From contig CAJXPQ010000002.1 in NCBI GenBank assembly GCA_913058265.1, forward strand, positions 62,001 through 126,000: DNA of 64,000 nt, written 5' to 3'. Positions 34,642 through 48,555 of this stretch are shown here, one piece after another (the stretch's first letter is position 1; every line of letters begins with the position of its first letter). The position numbers were made by a program, and so were the translations under genes. Source of the stretch: an uncultured Oligoflexia bacterium (GTDB taxonomy: Bacteria > Bdellovibrionota > Bacteriovoracia > Bacteriovoracales > Bacteriovoracaceae). The notes beneath the pieces are model-generated. The model was not told where the DNA came from and did no database searches. It saw only the letters and a list, made by a program, of their open reading frames with translations.

Positions 34642-35202
34642 ATGGCCGAAGAAGGCACAGAAGAAGTCGGACAACAAGCAGCTGCAAAGCCGCCCAAAGA
34701 TTCTTCAGGAAAAAATCCATTAGTCGCAATTTTATTAATAGTTAATATGGCATGCTTAGGTGCTGTAGCATTTATGCAGTTCAAATTTATGGAAATGGAA
34801 AAAAGTAGACCGGATCTTACAACTCTTTTAAAAGAAATGAATGCGGATAATAATTCTGAGCTAGATACAGAGCTTCCTCCAACAGAATCAATTTCAAAAG
34901 AGAACTTAGTTGATCTTGCAACATTCACAGTAAACTTGGCCCAAGGTGACGGTCCAAGAAGATACGTTAGACTTAACGCCGTGTTAAAGATGAGTGCAGA
35001 TTCTGAGCTGTCTGAGATTGAAGCGAGAAAACCTCAGATAAGAGATACGATCATTGGGATTTTAAATTCGAAAAGACCAGAGGATATATTGAAGAGAGAT
35101 GGTAAGCTTTATTTAAAGCAGGAAGTTAAGTCAGCAATCAATTCTTTTTTAATAGATGGAAAAGTGGTTGATGTATTTTATGTTGGATTTCAAATTAACT
35201 AA
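34642..35202 (+). CDS. fliL: Flagellar stator-associated protein FliL
   Basis: FliL is a single-pass inner-membrane protein that surrounds the stator ring and supports torque. The 186 residues have a cytosolic acidic/Pro-rich N-terminus, one membrane segment (NPLVAILLIVNMACLGAVAF, about 29-48), and a periplasmic stomatin-like domain. The family core is VDLATFTVNLAQGDGPRRYVRL, followed by RDTIIGILNSKRPEDIL. It is the first gene after the operon promoter, with an AGGAG site. fliM follows after 82 bases. Confidence 0.95.
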   Translation: MAEEGTEEVGQQAAAKPPKDSSGKNPLVAILLIVNMACLGAVAFMQFKFMEMEKSRPDLTTLLKEMNADNNSELDTELPPTESISKENLVDLATFTVNLAQGDGPRRYVRLNAVLKMSADSELSEIEARKPQIRDTIIGILNSKRPEDILKRDGKLYLKQEVKSAINSFLIDGKVVDVFYVGFQIN

Positions 35203-40737: not shown

Positions 40738-42798
40738 ATGTTTAGTAAGATATTTAAAAGTAACCCTGATATTTTTGTAGCCTTAGGCTTAATCCTTATC
40801 TTGGGTGTTATGATTGTACCTGTTGCTCCTTGGGCGATGGATTTACTTATTGCTTTAAGCCTTAGTGCTTCAATCATCATCTTGTTACTTAGTGTTTATA
40901 TCAAGAAGCCGTTAGACTTTTCTACTTTTCCAGCAGTCTTATTAGTTATTACATTATTCCGATTATCACTAAACGTGGCTTCAACTAAGAATATTCTTCT
41001 ACGTGGTGCTGCTGAAGGTGGTGGAGCTGCCGGTGATATAATCAAAGGTTTTGGAGAATATATTGTTTCAGGTAATTTTGCTGTCGGAATTATCATGTTC
41101 ATCATTTTTGTTATCATTAACTTTATCGTCATTACCAAAGGTGCTGGTAGGGTTGCAGAGGTTGCAGCAAGATTTACATTAGATGCAATGCCTGGAAAGC
41201 AAATGGCGATTGATGCCGATTTAAATGCAGGACTTATAAATGAATCTCAGGCGAAACTGAGACGTGAAGAAGTAGCTCAAGAAGCAGACTTTTACGGGTC
41301 TATGGACGGTGCAAGTAAGTTCGTTCGAGGGGATGCAATAGCCGGTATTTTAATTACGGCGATTAATATTATAGGCGGGATTATTGTTGGAGTTGCACAA
41401 GGTGGTATGGAGTTTGGTGCCGCAACGGAGACGTTTACACTTTTAACTGTTGGTGATGGTTTAATTGCTCAGATTCCAGCCATTGTTATCTCTACGGCTG
41501 CCGGTATTATCGCCACAAGAAATACAAATGATACAGGTCTATCAGAACAACTGACAAAGCAATTTTCATTTAATACCAAAGCTCTTTATATAACAGCTGG
41601 GATTCTATTCTTATTTGCTCTCATTCCTGGTTTTCCAGTCTTTCCGTTTGTTGCCATCTCTGCAATGATTGCTTTTGCAGCTTTTAGAATTGATAAAGGT
41701 AAGGAAGCGGAAGAAGCGAAAGGTAAGAAAGATGCTATTGATGAGAAAAAGGGTACCACTGATAACCTTGAGGAACTTCTTGCTCTTGAGATGGTTGAAC
41801 TTGAGGTTGGATATGGCCTCGTTAATATTGTAGATAGTGATCAAAATGGAGATCTTCTTGAACGAATATCTCATATTAGAAAACAGTTTGTGACAGATTG
41901 GGGGATTATAATTCCATCAATTCGTATCCGAGATAACCTCGAACTAAAGCCGGGTGGATACTCGCTTAAGATCAAAGGGATTGAAGTGGCCGAGGCTGAA
42001 CTTTTGCCAGATCACTTCCTTGCTATGGATCCAGGAACAGTTGTTGAGGAAATTGATGGTATCGCAACTAAAGAGCCAGTCTTTGGGCTTGATGCTGTAT
42101 GGATAAATGAAGAGTTGAAGGACGATGCTCAATATAACGGCTATACCGTAGTAGATCTCTCAACTGTTATGGCAACTCATATCACTGAGCTACTTAAGTC
42201 AAACCTTTCAGAGATGTTTGGACGTCAAGAACTTGCTCACGTACTTGATAACTTTAAGCAGGAATATCCAAAAGTTGTTGATGATTTAATCCCTGAAATC
42301 TTACCACTTGGCAGTGTGTTAAAAGTACTGCAAAATCTACTTAGGGAAGGTGTTCCTGTAAGAGATTTAAGAACGATTCTTGAATCCCTTGCTGAGCATG
42401 GTACAATGTTAAAGGACACTGATACTCTGACAGAAATGGCAAGAGAGTCATTGTACAGAACAATTACAGAGAGAGTTAAAAGTGATCAAGGAGACATCCC
42501 ACTGTTCACACTTGATCGTGGAATTGAAGAGTCATTGGCGCAAAATATTATTCAAACAGAAAAAGGTCAGGAGCTTTCATTGGATCCAAAATTAACTCAA
42601 ACTATTCTTGCAAGTTTGAATGAAAGGATTGAAGAGGCAACAAATATGGGTGAGAAAATGATTGTCTTATGTTCTCCAGTAGTACGAAGACACTTCAAAA
42701 GACTTACAGAAAAATTTATTCCGAACTTAATTGTGGTTAGCCATAATGAGTTAAGCCCGGAAGTGAACATAAGGTCCCTTGGGACCGTGAGGGTATAA
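40738..42798 (+). CDS. flhA: Flagellar export protein FlhA
   Basis: FlhA forms the nonameric ring of the export apparatus and binds chaperone-cargo complexes. It has 686 residues: eight membrane segments in the first half with the FHIPEP-type region (TLDAMPGKQMAIDADLNAGL, READFYGSMDGASKFVRGDA in a variant form), a charged linker near 320-345, and the C-terminal cytosolic domain with DNLELKPGGYSLKIKG and VIDHLSEML-like helices. Three bases separate it from flhF. AAGGATG precedes the start. Confidence 0.98.
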   Translation: MFSKIFKSNPDIFVALGLILILGVMIVPVAPWAMDLLIALSLSASIIILLLSVYIKKPLDFSTFPAVLLVITLFRLSLNVASTKNILLRGAAEGGGAAGDIIKGFGEYIVSGNFAVGIIMFIIFVIINFIVITKGAGRVAEVAARFTLDAMPGKQMAIDADLNAGLINESQAKLRREEVAQEADFYGSMDGASKFVRGDAIAGILITAINIIGGIIVGVAQGGMEFGAATETFTLLTVGDGLIAQIPAIVISTAAGIIATRNTNDTGLSEQLTKQFSFNTKALYITAGILFLFALIPGFPVFPFVAISAMIAFAAFRIDKGKEAEEAKGKKDAIDEKKGTTDNLEELLALEMVELEVGYGLVNIVDSDQNGDLLERISHIRKQFVTDWGIIIPSIRIRDNLELKPGGYSLKIKGIEVAEAELLPDHFLAMDPGTVVEEIDGIATKEPVFGLDAVWINEELKDDAQYNGYTVVDLSTVMATHITELLKSNLSEMFGRQELAHVLDNFKQEYPKVVDDLIPEILPLGSVLKVLQNLLREGVPVRDLRTILESLAEHGTMLKDTDTLTEMARESLYRTITERVKSDQGDIPLFTLDRGIEESLAQNIIQTEKGQELSLDPKLTQTILASLNERIEEATNMGEKMIVLCSPVVRRHFKRLTEKFIPNLIVVSHNELSPEVNIRSLGTVRV

Positions 42799-42801
42799 TA
42801 T

Positions 42802-44283
42802 ATGTTTGTAAAAAAATTCGAAGGTGACACATTAGATGCAGCACTTCAACAGGTCAAAAGAGAATTAGGACCTGATGCTATTATTCTTAAGACGGTAACG
42901 AATAAAGGTCTGAAAGGTGCTTTTAAGAAGAATCGTATCGAGATTACAGCAGCAATTTCTGAACAGAGTTATGAGAAGAAAGCAAGGGTTGATCACGTTA
43001 TGACTAGTCCACAACAGGAAGAGTTTTATCAAGCTCCTGCATCTCGCGTAAATAATATGATTAATAATTATGATGATCATAGGACAGGGCAATCTCAACG
43101 AAATGAGGCTTCAACCCAAACAGCTAGCTATGGTAATATGGGATTAAATAAAGTTGTTAACTCTGTTGCAAAGGCATCAACAAAATTAAAAAATTCTTTA
43201 GATGATTTTTTAACACTTGAAGAGGATCCTAAGGGTACTACTGCTAGCGGATCTCTTGATTCTTTCTTACAAGAAGCACCTCAAAAACAAGCAGCGACTC
43301 AACAACATAATAATCTAAATGAAGAAAGTCACTATGCTCAAGAATCAAAAACGGAAATGTTGATTGAGCAAGAGAGAATGCATAATGACGAAATTTCTTC
43401 TGAAATGAAACATGAAATAAAAAGTCAAAGACATCAAATTGAACTACTAGAACAAAAGCTTTTTGAGATCTCTGAGAGGATGACTCATAGGGGTGATGAT
43501 AGTGAACCTTTAGGAATCAAAGGGCTAAGAACAACTCTTAGATCTTTAGAGCTAAGTGAAAAAATAGTTCAGAAAATTATTAAAAAAGCAGTTTTCGAAT
43601 TAACAAAGGAAGACCTTGATGATGCCGATCTTGTTTATGACTTTGCCCTCCGTGAGATAAATGGCCTTGTGAATACAGATATGCCACTATTTTCATCTGT
43701 CGATACTGATGAGTCTCCAGTGGTAACAGCTCTGATTTCAGAGAACCCTTCAGGTCAAACATCTATGGCATTAAAGCTAGCTGTACTGCAAGAAGACGTT
43801 AAAGTCATTAGATTCAGAATGAATCCAAATGATGTTGATTCAGCAGATTTTACTACAAAAGTATTTAAGCTTGATGTAACAACTGTATCAACACTTGCTC
43901 ATTTGATGAGTGAGGCGAGAAAGGCCTTGGCAGATAGAAAGTCACTGATCTTAGATTTGAAATTAAGCTTTACTGACAATATTGAGTCAAAGAAATTTAT
44001 TGAGACCCTAAAACGCTCATTTGATCAATTAGAAATTTTGGTAACAATTTCGGGAATACATTCAGAATTATACAATAGAAAAATTCTTGCCAAGTATAAT
44101 TCATTTTCTAATGGTGCTATAATTTCTTATATCGATCAATGTTTGAGCTTTGGATCATTGTTGAATGTGCATGCTGAATATAATGATTTACCACTGAAGT
44201 TTTATGGAACAGGTCCAACAGTACCTGATGATATAGAAGCAGCAACGGCCGAAAGGATTTTGGCCGGAATGTTTGAATTGTAG
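42802..44283 (+). CDS. flhF: FlhF-like protein lacking GTPase motifs
   Basis: FlhF is normally an SRP-type GTPase that places the polar flagellum. The N-terminal B domain (MFVKKFEGDTLDAALQQVKR, ELGPDAIILKT) is conserved. A long Gln/Asn/Glu linker (about 60-225) and an N-domain helix bundle follow. In the G domain, the P-loop position reads SENPSGQTS (313-321), with Gln319 replacing the essential Lys. The DTYR, DTAGR and TKLDE motifs are also lost, but the closing VPDDIEAATAERILAGMFE is retained. It cannot bind and hydrolyse GTP in the usual way. Gene order (flhA-flhF-flhG-fliA) fixes its identity. Confidence 0.9.
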   Translation: MFVKKFEGDTLDAALQQVKRELGPDAIILKTVTNKGLKGAFKKNRIEITAAISEQSYEKKARVDHVMTSPQQEEFYQAPASRVNNMINNYDDHRTGQSQRNEASTQTASYGNMGLNKVVNSVAKASTKLKNSLDDFLTLEEDPKGTTASGSLDSFLQEAPQKQAATQQHNNLNEESHYAQESKTEMLIEQERMHNDEISSEMKHEIKSQRHQIELLEQKLFEISERMTHRGDDSEPLGIKGLRTTLRSLELSEKIVQKIIKKAVFELTKEDLDDADLVYDFALREINGLVNTDMPLFSSVDTDESPVVTALISENPSGQTSMALKLAVLQEDVKVIRFRMNPNDVDSADFTTKVFKLDVTTVSTLAHLMSEARKALADRKSLILDLKLSFTDNIESKKFIETLKRSFDQLEILVTISGIHSELYNRKILAKYNSFSNGAIISYIDQCLSFGSLLNVHAEYNDLPLKFYGTGPTVPDDIEAATAERILAGMFEL

Positions 44284-44343: not shown

Positions 44344-45246
44344 ATGAGCAAGACAAGTGAATGGTTAGTTTCATTTAATTCGAATTATCAAAAGCACATT
44401 GAAGGAATTATTTCTGAGAGAAAAAAATCTCGTCGTGAAATGATGACGATCTCAGTGACAGGTGGCAAGGGCGGAGTTGGAAAAACATCTGTCTCTCTAA
44501 AAATAGCAAAGGATCTAGCAGACTCTGGAGCAAAAGTTCTCCTTATTGACTGTGACTATAATCTCTCAAATACAGCGATTAAACTTGGTTTACCAATACA
44601 AAATACATTCTATTCTTTAGTTACTGCCGAAAAGCAGTTTGACGAGTGCTTGTATAAAGATGGAAGTTTTCACTTGCTTTCAGCATGTAATGGAAGTCTG
44701 GATCTATTTGATTCACAATTTAAATTAGAAGAACTTATTATTGATGTCGTGAATGAGCATGGGCACGAGTACGATTATATTGTTTTAGACTGTCCTGCAG
44801 GATTGCAGAGAGAGTCTATAACATTGAATGCCTACTGTGATAAGCGAGTTGTTGTTGTTACTCCAGATAGATCCTCCATAACGGACTCATACTCCTTAAT
44901 GAAAGTTCTAGCTATGAAATTTGGTATTAAAGAGAATCATCTTTTAGTAAATATGACGAGTTCAAAATCTCAATACAATAGAGTCGTAAAAACACTGAGT
45001 GAAACAGTTGAGAACTTTCTTGGTTGTAGAACTCAAATCCTCGGAGGGATTCCTCGTTTAAATGTATCTGCAAGCGAATTTGATAGTACATTTTTAAACC
45101 TAGGCAAAAATGACCACCAGAAAATCTTTCTTAAAGTGATAAGTAAGCTTACCGAAGAGTTAGGCAGTCCAAAGATTGAAGAAGTCGTATTGACTCCTAA
45201 ATCTCATGGGCATTGTGAACAAGAAGTTCAAATTTTTAACGCTTAA
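44344..45246 (+). CDS. flhG: MinD/ParA-like ATPase FlhG
   Basis: FlhG (FleN, YlxH) limits flagellar number and works with FlhF. The deviant Walker A GGKGGVGKTS (40-49) is intact, as are the VLLIDCDYNLSN switch segment and the DYIVLDCPAG Walker B region. The 39 residues before the P-loop do not contain the DQAxxLR-type activator motif by which FlhG stimulates FlhF GTPase. An amphipathic membrane-targeting helix is not obvious at the C-terminus either. It has 300 residues with AGGAAG upstream. It pairs with a GTPase-dead FlhF. Confidence 0.93.
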   Translation: MSKTSEWLVSFNSNYQKHIEGIISERKKSRREMMTISVTGGKGGVGKTSVSLKIAKDLADSGAKVLLIDCDYNLSNTAIKLGLPIQNTFYSLVTAEKQFDECLYKDGSFHLLSACNGSLDLFDSQFKLEELIIDVVNEHGHEYDYIVLDCPAGLQRESITLNAYCDKRVVVVTPDRSSITDSYSLMKVLAMKFGIKENHLLVNMTSSKSQYNRVVKTLSETVENFLGCRTQILGGIPRLNVSASEFDSTFLNLGKNDHQKIFLKVISKLTEELGSPKIEEVVLTPKSHGHCEQEVQIFNA

Positions 45247-45258
45247 GGAGAAAGCTCA

Positions 45259-46044
45259 ATGTCGTCACTTACTGCCAAACTTAGAAATTTAAAAGATTAC
45301 AGATGTACAGTAGATCAACAGGTTAAAGATGAAATAATTGTTGAGTACGCACCTCTAGTACGATTTATTGCTCAAAAAATAGCTTCTAGGCTACCAGCAA
45401 ATATTGAGTTAGATGACCTTATCTCTTGTGGAGTTATTGGTTTAATGGATGCGATCCAAAAATTTGATCCAACGAGAGATAATAAATTTAAAACTTATGC
45501 AGAGTTCAGAATTAGAGGGGCCATCCTTGATGAGCTTAGATCTCAAGACTGGGTTCCAAGATCTGTAAGGGAAAAAACAAAACAATTAGAGAGAGCTTAT
45601 ACAAAGTTAGAAAGAAATTTAGGTCGCCCTGCATCTGATGATGAAATGTGTGCTGAGCTTGATTGTAACCTAACTGATTTTCACGAAATGCTAAATAAAT
45701 CAAAATCCGTTTCTCTTTTAAATATTGATGACTCAGCGACTTTTAGTCGAGGAGACAAGAAGCTAATGATGGGACTACTTGAGCATAGACGCTCGTCAAA
45801 TCCTTTCTCAGCGGTCAATTACAAAAGAGCTCAAGATATTATTAGAGATGGAATTAAGGCTTTGCCAGAGAAGCAAAGACTTGTACTCTCACTTTATTAC
45901 TTTGAAGATCTAAATCTCAAAGAAATTGGTCAAGTATTGGATGTTACTGAGTCGAGAGTTTCACAGCTTCATACCCAGGCAATCTTAAAATTAAAAGCTA
46001 AGCTCAAAAATGACTTTGATTCACATGAAGACCTAGCTATGTAA
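45259..46044 (+). CDS. fliA: Flagellar sigma factor FliA (sigma-28)
   Basis: The 261-residue group 3 sigma factor drives late flagellar and chemotaxis genes. Region 2 contains LDDLISCGVIGLMDAIQKFD, then FKTYAEFRIRGAILDELRSQ and DWVPRSVREK, the FliA/WhiG signature. Region 4 is LPEKQRLVLSLYYFEDLNLK with the DNA-binding helix VTESRVSQLHTQAI. It is the last gene of the operon, 12 bases after flhG, with AAGGAG upstream. Its anti-sigma FlgM is not in the window. Confidence 0.97.
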   Translation: MSSLTAKLRNLKDYRCTVDQQVKDEIIVEYAPLVRFIAQKIASRLPANIELDDLISCGVIGLMDAIQKFDPTRDNKFKTYAEFRIRGAILDELRSQDWVPRSVREKTKQLERAYTKLERNLGRPASDDEMCAELDCNLTDFHEMLNKSKSVSLLNIDDSATFSRGDKKLMMGLLEHRRSSNPFSAVNYKRAQDIIRDGIKALPEKQRLVLSLYYFEDLNLKEIGQVLDVTESRVSQLHTQAILKLKAKLKNDFDSHEDLAM

Positions 46045-46105: not shown

Positions 46106-46203
46106 TTATCTACATCCTTTACAACTCAACTGAATTCATTAGATAATATCTTCGGGTAGCTTACCTTGAATGGCACAGGATCGTGTTATTAGTGGAGATT
46201 AGG

Positions 46204-48555
46204 ATGATTGAAAACATTTCAAAAAAAATCACTCAATTTTATCAAATTTCATTAGTCGTTATTATGCTCTCAACTCTTGGAGTTGTTCTATACTTTTGGA
46301 AATTAGGTTTTATTGATGGAAGTAGAGGAAATGACTTACATAAGAGTAGTTATATCTTAGAGACTTATGATAAAAAACGTATTTTTAATGAAGTAAAAAC
46401 ATTGATCCGCGATGAAAACCCAAAACTATCAATTAAGCGTATTAAAGAGATGGAAAGTGACTTTGAAAAAGTTCACAGTCAGGTTGATATTCCTGAATAT
46501 GAAGCTCTTAAAATCAATTTACAAAGTTTGAAAAATGGGGCTGCAGCTCTAATCACATACCCGAAAGTTTCTAAAGTTCAAAAAGTCTTTAATAACAAAA
46601 TGATGAACTTCTATGAATATGTGAAGCAGAATAACTGGAGAACACTAACACGAATGAGTGATCGTATTTTCTCTCAGACAAGAGGACATATAAATATAGA
46701 TAAAATTGATCTCTTAGCAAAAAACATAAACCGTGATTTTAATTCCATGATTAAGATTACAGAGAACTCAATACTATCAAGAAAAGATAAAGCAGAAGTC
46801 GTTGTAAGAATTAAGAACCTTCAAATCGAAATTAAGATGCTTGGAAAATACGCAGCTGGCAGAACAGCTTTCTATCGGAATTATACTGATACTAACGAAG
46901 CTATTAAGTCTTGGGTTGCTGGGGTTGCTCCAGAGTTAACACTCCAAAAAATACAGGTAGAACAAATTGGACGTTATTACGTCATGGGATTGCTGGGAAT
47001 CTTTTCAATAGTGTTTGGTGCCTTCCTTGGAAGTTTTGTATGGAATAAATGGTCATTAAAAAAGTCTCAATCTGACATTGAATCAGTTATTGAAAATCTT
47101 ATAAGTCACAATATCATTGAAAAAGAAACACTTGAAGCAGGAGTCTTCTCTAAAAATTTTGAGAGTTTTACTCGTAATATGACTTCATACTTTCATAAAA
47201 GAATGAGCTTTGGCAGTATTTTTCAAGATGCTATGCCATTCTCTTCAATTTTATTAGACAATAATTTAAAGGTTCTTTGGGCCAACAAACAATTCTGTGA
47301 AGATTGGTTGATTTCAAATGATGAAATCAATAAAGAATATATGAGTTGGGACTTCCTGAATAAACTAACGAATATTGGTAACGATGACCCAGTACTTGAA
47401 GCCTTAAAGCATAATGTGGCAGGAATTTATCAAGTACAAATTAAGCCAAACGATAAGGCACCTGCAAGGCCATTTGAGATGTTTGTCGCTCCAGTTAAGC
47501 AGCATGGAGAATCTCGAATTATGCTATTCTTTTACGACTTAACTAATTTGGAAGAAACCATTCAGGATCAAGCGAAAAGTTTGTTAACTCCAATTAAGAA
47601 AAGTTTAAACTTAATGGAAAGTGGTCAACTTACAAGAAGTGAAGATTTGGAGCAAGAGTTTGGTATATCAGGAACTCTTGATATTTATAACCGATTTATA
47701 GAACTTAATGAAAAGGTTAGAAATGATAACCAACGCTTAATTGATAAAGTTGAAATGCTCTACAACTCCATAGAGGTTTTAGAGGACCTTGTTGCCAACT
47801 TGGAAGGTGGACTTGTTGAAGGTATGAATCTTAATAAAACTAAAGTGCAATCACTAAAAGTCTTTAAAGATTCTGTCATTGGAATGTCTCAATTATCCAA
47901 AAATTTAAATCAGTCTATGCTTAAAGGTAGAGAGCTCATTGACGTGAATAAAACGACTGTTTTTGGAAGTGCTCAAAAAATTGTAGAGATGAAGAGTCTT
48001 ACTACTGAGATGATGGGAACATTGCCAAGATTTAATAAAGTTAAAGAAGAAATAAAAGAAGCTAAGTCTCACTTTCAAGATTCTAAATCGAAAATGGGAC
48101 ATGAGTTGGCTCAAATGACACTATTTATGAAAAGAATAAATGAGCCAAACGGCGTTGAGAAGGTTGGAAGAACTTTTTCTCGTTTCTCACAAACTTTCGG
48201 AGATGTGGCGGAGTATGCAAATCAATTAGATAAAAAGATATCTCACTTAGAGCTGATTATTAGTAAAGCGCAGTTGGTATTTAACTCTTCTCATGAGCGC
48301 TTGACCCAGCTTGAAATCAGTAAGGAAAAGTCTCAAATTATCGCTTGTGATGAATTCTCAAAAAGCTCAGCAGATCTTATGGTAAACAGCACTAAAAGTA
48401 TTGAGAAGCTTGAGACGGAAATTGTTTCAAGTTTGAAGGATATCTTTGGCGCTACAAAAGCCAGCATTTCTGTTAACTCTGAGCTACTTAAGGGTCTCCC
48501 TAAATCTGACCCTTCGAACGAATCAAGAACAGAGGGTGATAGGCACGTAGGCTAG
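46204..48555 (+). CDS. Membrane PAS/coiled-coil protein next to the flagellar operon
   Basis: ATG 46204 has GGAG 6 bases upstream; the frame extends to 46183 without a site. Of 783 residues, membrane segments near 13-35 and 257-280 frame an extracytoplasmic helical sensor domain of about 220 residues. A PAS-like domain follows (about 336-445: SILLDNNLKVLWANKQFCED), then a long coiled coil to the end. The arrangement is that of a chemoreceptor or histidine kinase. However, neither the conserved receptor hairpin tip nor HisKA/ATPase motifs are present, so the output is unknown. Position suggests a motility or chemotaxis link. Confidence 0.75.
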   Translation: MIENISKKITQFYQISLVVIMLSTLGVVLYFWKLGFIDGSRGNDLHKSSYILETYDKKRIFNEVKTLIRDENPKLSIKRIKEMESDFEKVHSQVDIPEYEALKINLQSLKNGAAALITYPKVSKVQKVFNNKMMNFYEYVKQNNWRTLTRMSDRIFSQTRGHINIDKIDLLAKNINRDFNSMIKITENSILSRKDKAEVVVRIKNLQIEIKMLGKYAAGRTAFYRNYTDTNEAIKSWVAGVAPELTLQKIQVEQIGRYYVMGLLGIFSIVFGAFLGSFVWNKWSLKKSQSDIESVIENLISHNIIEKETLEAGVFSKNFESFTRNMTSYFHKRMSFGSIFQDAMPFSSILLDNNLKVLWANKQFCEDWLISNDEINKEYMSWDFLNKLTNIGNDDPVLEALKHNVAGIYQVQIKPNDKAPARPFEMFVAPVKQHGESRIMLFFYDLTNLEETIQDQAKSLLTPIKKSLNLMESGQLTRSEDLEQEFGISGTLDIYNRFIELNEKVRNDNQRLIDKVEMLYNSIEVLEDLVANLEGGLVEGMNLNKTKVQSLKVFKDSVIGMSQLSKNLNQSMLKGRELIDVNKTTVFGSAQKIVEMKSLTTEMMGTLPRFNKVKEEIKEAKSHFQDSKSKMGHELAQMTLFMKRINEPNGVEKVGRTFSRFSQTFGDVAEYANQLDKKISHLELIISKAQLVFNSSHERLTQLEISKEKSQIIACDEFSKSSADLMVNSTKSIEKLETEIVSSLKDIFGATKASISVNSELLKGLPKSDPSNESRTEGDRHVG

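Follow-up and report, generated by a model that had tools for sequence, protein, structure and literature searches.

The window, a stretch of 64,000 nt from an uncultured Oligoflexia bacterium, carries flagellar genes in the order fliL-fliM-fliN-fliO-fliP-fliQ-fliR-flhB-flhA-flhF-flhG-fliA, located at positions 34642 (fliL), 35285 (fliM), 36295 (fliN), 36683 (fliO), 37816 (fliP), 38589 (fliQ, assigned by position and size), 38861 (fliR), 39652 (flhB), 40738 (flhA), 42802 (flhF), 44344 (flhG) and 45259 (fliA). The gene studied here, flhF (42802..44283, forward strand), is an uninterrupted ORF of 493 codons. It starts 3 nt past the end of flhA (40738..42798, forward strand; TIGR01398, 877 bits) and ends 60 nt before flhG (44344..45246, forward strand), which encodes a MinD-type ATPase of 300 aa with an intact Walker A motif; the fliA sigma factor gene follows (45259..46044, forward strand; TIGR02479, 271 bits). 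The initial annotation described an intact flhF within a complete flagellar operon. The gene is indeed intact and lies in an operon between flhA and flhG; the operon is of the export/switch type and is not complete, as fliG, for example, is located on another contig. The large protein encoded after fliA (46183-48555) has weak PAS similarity; its counterpart at the same place in a flagellum-less genus of the family, g33, is 27% identical.

The 493-aa product is not easily recognized as FlhF. A Pfam search detected no domain, and the NCBI equivalog model for FlhF, TIGR03499, gave 63.2 bits, under its cut-off of 174.15. Profile and structure comparisons did identify it. A profile of the family sequences (the family is Bacteriovoracaceae/Halobacteriovoraceae, predatory bacteria) aligned by hhalign with canonical FlhF of the same phylum over 439 columns (probability 100, E=1e-40). 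Against PDB, the best match of the family profile was Bacillus subtilis FlhF (2px0), and the structure of the FliG-interacting domain (FID), 9en1, was matched as well. Foldseek, run with the AF2 model, placed GDP-bound FlhF of Shewanella putrefaciens first (8r9r, E=6e-13), and 2px3 was also detected (E=2e-11). Matches to influenza hemagglutinin in the profile search (residues 177-287) were dismissed as coiled-helix artefacts. By gene position, by the domain order FID/B-linker-N-G and by the NG fold, the product is an orthologue of FlhF by descent.

The same genome has no second canonical FlhF, the finding that would have undercut the initial annotation: TIGR03499 had no match above cut-off in the genome, and only two ORFs outside flhF have full-scoring domains of SRP54-type GTPases. 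From their lengths and scores these two were taken as FtsY and Ffh, separate members of the SRP GTPase superfamily that share the NG fold. Sequencing error or a frameshift was rejected because the frame is intact and 92 relatives are in the same state.

The domains of the protein follow one another as in canonical FlhF (all coordinates are on the forward strand). Residues 1-54 (42802..42963) are the N-terminal FID of the B domain, aligned with 9en1 (residues 3-56 of the structure, E=0.001); its residues are strongly conserved in the family and common to canonical FlhF, and it is the best conserved part of the protein. A poorly conserved, disordered linker (residues 103-181, 43108..43344; pLDDT below 50) is followed by a long helix (residues 182-232, 43345..43497; AF2 model), the N domain (residues 237-299, 43510..43698; AF2 model and hhalign) and the pseudo-G domain (residues 306-493, 43717..44280), whose assignment draws on the AF2 fold, on Foldseek matches to FlhF and other SRP GTPases and on dN/dS. 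The AF2 model has an overall pLDDT of 77, rising to about 90 across most of the NG domain. In this model and in the Foldseek comparison the SRP-type NG fold is present, and the model keeps the geometry of a P-loop: a strand (308-313), a loop and a helix (319-329).

GTPase motifs in the family

Family FlhF were collected by an alignment-based scan of genome contigs; a scan with a single protein matched nothing. We aligned 93 non-redundant family sequences, including those of the cultured isolates H. marinus 36_234_T64, Bacteriovorax BSW11_IV and DB6_IX, with 37 FlhF from 21 other families of the phylum; most of the sequences compared come from metagenome bins. The TIGR03499 cut-off was reached by none of 97 family genomes, versus 110 genomes elsewhere in the phylum.

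The pseudo-P-loop is SENPSGQTS (residues 313-321, 43738..43764, forward strand), with Ser in place of the first Gly and Gln in place of Lys. Both substitutions (S313 and Q319) are found in all 93 family members, an invariance far greater than chance would give; all 37 proteins of the other families have Gly and Lys at these positions and keep the motif G-x4-G-K-T. Two comparisons, hhalign with canonical FlhF of the phylum and profile alignment with 2px0, set Q319 on the P-loop Lys, and the pattern GxxxxGK[ST] occurs in 0 of 93 family sequences scanned from residue 151 onward (37 of 37 in sister families). A misalignment concealing the Lys elsewhere is thus ruled out, and the earlier reading of the P-loop holds for the whole family. 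The Ser/Thr at position 320 is kept in 89 of the 93.

Other motifs are lost in part. The G2 region, DTxR with its arginine finger, has no conserved motif at residues 334-351 (the pattern appears in a single family sequence of 93). The G3 remnant, D385-L-K387 (43954..43962, forward strand), has kept its Asp (92/93) and lost the Gly of DxxG (present in 1/93). In the G4 remnant S442-Y-I-D445-Q-C447 (44125..44142, forward strand), which replaces TKLDE, the Asp is retained in 92 of 93 sequences and Ser/Thr in 85, Lys at position 443 survives in two, and Cys at 447 is gained in 89. The G5 element and closing segment, GTGPTVPDD (residues 469-477, 44206..44232, forward strand), is largely kept according to both hhalign and the family alignment: GTG (469-471) is found in most members, and the fourth position of the consensus Gx(G/S)(K/E/Q) is Glu in 33 and Pro in 32 of the 93. 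These counts show that the phosphate-binding and catalytic half of the site is lost and the nucleoside half is kept. The initial annotation had every GTPase motif eroded; this is accurate for the P-loop Lys and Gly, G2, the G3 Gly and the G4 Lys, and too broad for D385, D445, Ser/Thr320 and G5. Its statement that the B domain and the closing VPDD segment are retained agrees with the 9en1 match and with the conservation of these residues.

Two charged positions distinguish the family. An acidic residue at P-loop position 314 occurs in 88 of the 93 family proteins, and position 387, two past the G3 Asp, is basic (K/R387) in 90; neither charge occurs in any of the 37 sister proteins. K/R387 therefore appears together with the change of Lys to Gln. 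Both charges are present in 87 sequences, both are absent in two, and four are mixed (Fisher p=0.007, with phylogeny ignored).

This pattern allows a reading in which a guanine nucleotide (GDP, GTP, ppGpp or similar) continues to be bound by the G4 Asp, G5, Ser/Thr320 and the G3 Asp, with K/R387 replacing the P-loop Lys. Relocation of a lysine of this kind is known from WNK kinases. We consider it the main rival to loss of binding, though an unlikely one. The near-invariance of D385, D445 and S/T320, the retention of G5 and the restriction of K/R387 to the family all speak for it, as do mutants of Vibrio FlhF: the kept positions are those at which substitutions (T306A, D439A) abolish flagella, while substitution of the P-loop Lys (K305A) does not (PMC6092412). 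On the other hand, the acidic residue at 314 would repel phosphate, the first P-loop Gly is Ser without exception, and the tendency of 314 and 387 to be lost together is explained at least as well by a salt bridge within the protein that occupies the phosphate site.

Selection and origin

In 13 pairs of closely related family members the G domain has a dN/dS between 0.005 and 0.067, which indicates strong purifying selection. A quick ML tree built without the P-loop columns sets the family on one side of a branch (SH-aLRT 100), and a single change between K and Q suffices on the tree; long branches were flagged, which leaves placement inside the tree unsure. The pseudo-GTPase state probably arose once, before the family diversified.

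The low score against the FlhF model (63 bits at a cut-off of 174) and the missing Pfam domain could also be expected of a gene that is decaying and dispensable in this lineage. This is extremely improbable and is refuted by sequence data: the pseudo-G domain has a dN/dS of about 0.005-0.07, far below 1, the ORF is open in every member fetched, and Q319 and S313 are invariant. Moreover, the five further family genomes in which no FlhF gene was found also have no FlhA, which points to a missing locus or contig; as G029 among them has FliG and FliM, its lack of FlhF is probably an assembly gap. A genome of the same genus as the source organism, G001, has two pseudo-FlhF genes (C1:215374 and C20:46013; L047 and L033), which its contamination estimate of 9% may explain.

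FlhG and the flagellum-less genus g33

The FlhG encoded next to flhF has an intact Walker A motif, GKGGVGKT (44464..44487, forward strand). At its N terminus, where the enhancer helix DQAxxLR is expected, it has SEWLVSF (44356..44376, forward strand). DQAxxLR was found in none of 79 family FlhG, and 78 of the 79 have at this place a WL motif (W-L-x-S or a close variant); the N-terminal stretch with this family-wide motif (44344-44460) may constitute a new docking helix. The Gln of DQAxxLR is a co-catalyst of GTP hydrolysis by FlhF (PMC12826062). The motif is present in FlhG of sister families f7, f9, f20 and f25. Strict coupling between loss of the P-loop and loss of DQAxxLR is ruled out by f3, f6, f11, f14, f18, f21-f24 and f26-f28, in which FlhF keeps GKT and FlhG has no DQAxxLR; the enhancer helix is thus lost more widely than the P-loop. 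Pseudomonas FleN, the FlhG of that genus, also has no DQAxxLR (PMC12713375). Since the helix is absent alongside canonical FlhF as well, its loss alone does not signal a dead FlhF; it is a consistent sign and no proof.

Genus g33 is represented by three genomes (G035, G120 and G165; 94-99% complete) in which no FlhA, FliG or FliM was found. All the same, g33 keeps a pseudo-FlhF of 351-384 aa with GQ(T/S)S. The locus matches that of the window minus the flagellar genes: DsbA (44% identical), a 170-aa ORF, pseudo-FlhF, FliA (65%) and a membrane protein (27%). Pseudo-FlhF adjoins fliA, and no flhG is adjacent. The 170-aa ORF, new relative to the window, lies upstream of flhF with an overlap of 4 nt; a FliM remnant was ruled out (profile probability 0.1). 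The compact part of the locus (170-aa ORF, pseudo-FlhF, FliA) spans L202:8026-10547, L203:7935-10336 and L204:7233-9742; the 170-aa proteins share 25-67% identity with the first one and have no family match. Between G035 and G165 the G-domain dN/dS is 0.024, again indicating purifying selection.

Either FlhF has a flagellum-independent role in the family or it acquired one in g33. As g33 keeps pseudo-FlhF in the absence of FlhA, FliG and FliM, flagellar placement is probably not its sole role, and a partner outside the flagellum probably exists. In a stronger version, pseudo-FlhF would work chiefly outside the flagellum, as a polar or regulatory factor together with FliA, and something else would place the flagella of the family. 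The g33 locus, with its selected G domain, is what recommends this version, which we regard as improbable: in the flagellated members read flhG comes after flhF, the window's flhF belongs to the export operon, no part of the protein is better conserved than the FliG-binding FID, and FlhG has a co-conserved N-terminal motif. Genome G000 encodes, besides canonical FliG (C7), three more proteins with a FliG_C domain (C2:284755, C6:3976 and C10:56561; L205-L207), two of them only about 150 aa long, and a second FliM-like protein (C8:71926).

FlhF as scaffold or switch

FlhF is normally a GTP-powered switch that decides the site of the flagellum. Whether GTP binding, GTP hydrolysis or neither is needed for a polar flagellum is debated, as mutants disagree between species. 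The canonical proteins (B. subtilis 2px0/3syn, S. putrefaciens 8r9r, Vibrio, Pseudomonas) and the pseudo-FlhF described here share the domain order, the NG fold, the gene order flhA-flhF-flhG-fliA, the FliG-binding N terminus, the VPDD(I/L) end and the Asp residues of G3 and G4. Pseudo-FlhF differs from them in having lost the P-loop Lys and first Gly, the G2 DTxR, the G3 Gly and the G4 Lys, in its new invariant Ser and Gln and its new acidic 314/basic 387 pair, and in being accompanied by an FlhG that has no DQAxxLR.

Residues of the GTP site are lost, yet the protein is carefully conserved in that form, which suggests that it is probably a scaffold rather than a switch. Judged from its motifs, the protein has almost certainly lost GTP hydrolysis and has likely lost nucleotide binding too. 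Good support for a catalytically dead FlhF retained as a scaffold comes from the invariant Gln and Ser of the P-loop, the strong purifying selection, the loss of the G2 Arg region and the loss of DQAxxLR. Our best explanation, which we hold to be probable, is that FlhF of this family is a conserved pseudo-GTPase scaffold fixed in one state, with release and number control exerted by FlhG.

Such a protein would hydrolyse no GTP and would probably lack the head-to-tail homodimer that canonical FlhF forms with Mg-GTP. S. putrefaciens FlhF contacts FliG through its FID and the pole landmark HubP through its NG domain; hydrolysis triggered by FlhG is proposed to permit C-ring assembly (PMC11236974). 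By analogy, FliG, and with it the flagellum's FliF/FliG seed, would be held by the N terminus of pseudo-FlhF and a polar anchor by its pseudo-G domain; both ends of the tether would be kept and the middle fixed in one state. A model of the FimV core (the FimV/HubP landmark) had no match in the genome, nor in any of the controls. Release and number control would shift to FlhG, which has an intact ATPase site and whose helix, with the conserved WL motif in place of the catalytic DQAxxLR, is expected to serve purely for docking to the pseudo-G domain. The 314/387 pair may fill the vacant phosphate site. The pseudo-G domain probably has a non-flagellar partner as well, because g33 keeps the gene next to fliA with no flhA, fliG, fliM or adjacent flhG. 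That all of this holds at once, i.e. that a nucleotide-free FlhF runs polar placement, docks the WL-motif helix of FlhG and has a second, flagellum-independent partner, is a tentative proposition with the odds against it.

Placement of the flagellum by pseudo-FlhF is plausible, as published isolates of Halobacteriovorax have a single polar flagellum (PMC5760749, PMC12724312); evidence of polar flagellation comes from these isolates rather than from the source organism of the window. GTPase-dead mutants offer the closest parallel: FlhF R334A of V. alginolyticus still places flagella (PMC6092412). In this mutant and in R251G of Pseudomonas aeruginosa hydrolysis is lost, as it almost certainly is in the family. 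Both were engineered by changing the G2 Arg alone and presumably still bind GTP; the family's loss arose in nature, is shared by all its members and extends to the phosphate-binding loop. In Vibrio, GTP binding rather than hydrolysis is reported to be important, and several binding-site mutants of FlhF fail (PMC6092412). The family's S/T320 and D445 would correspond to Vibrio T306 and D439, positions placed by motif rather than by direct alignment to the Vibrio sequence; their retention counts against the scaffold, and residual nucleotide binding would fit it, just as the kept nucleoside-side elements (the G4 Asp and G5) tell against a nucleotide-free state. The initial annotation had proposed a nucleotide-independent scaffold. 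The scaffold part is well supported; nucleotide independence is less so, because the site has kept its guanine-side anchors as well as the Ser/Thr and Asp on the Mg side, and K/R387 is new. Pseudomonas, where FleN/FlhG is likewise a MinD-type ATPase adjoining flhF with no catalytic enhancer motif (PMC12713375), keeps a canonical FlhF GTPase; the family combines an almost certainly dead FlhF with a new conserved motif in FlhG.

Our literature search, which mostly covered sources outside subscription journals, returned no report of a natural pseudo-GTPase FlhF. The family thus presents a natural experiment: it has lost the phosphate site and the co-catalyst supplied by FlhG, published isolates are polarly flagellated, and the protein is under strong selection. 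The question 'scaffold or switch' can here be put to a direct test, and genus g33, which has no flagellum, offers a route to the other partner of the G domain.
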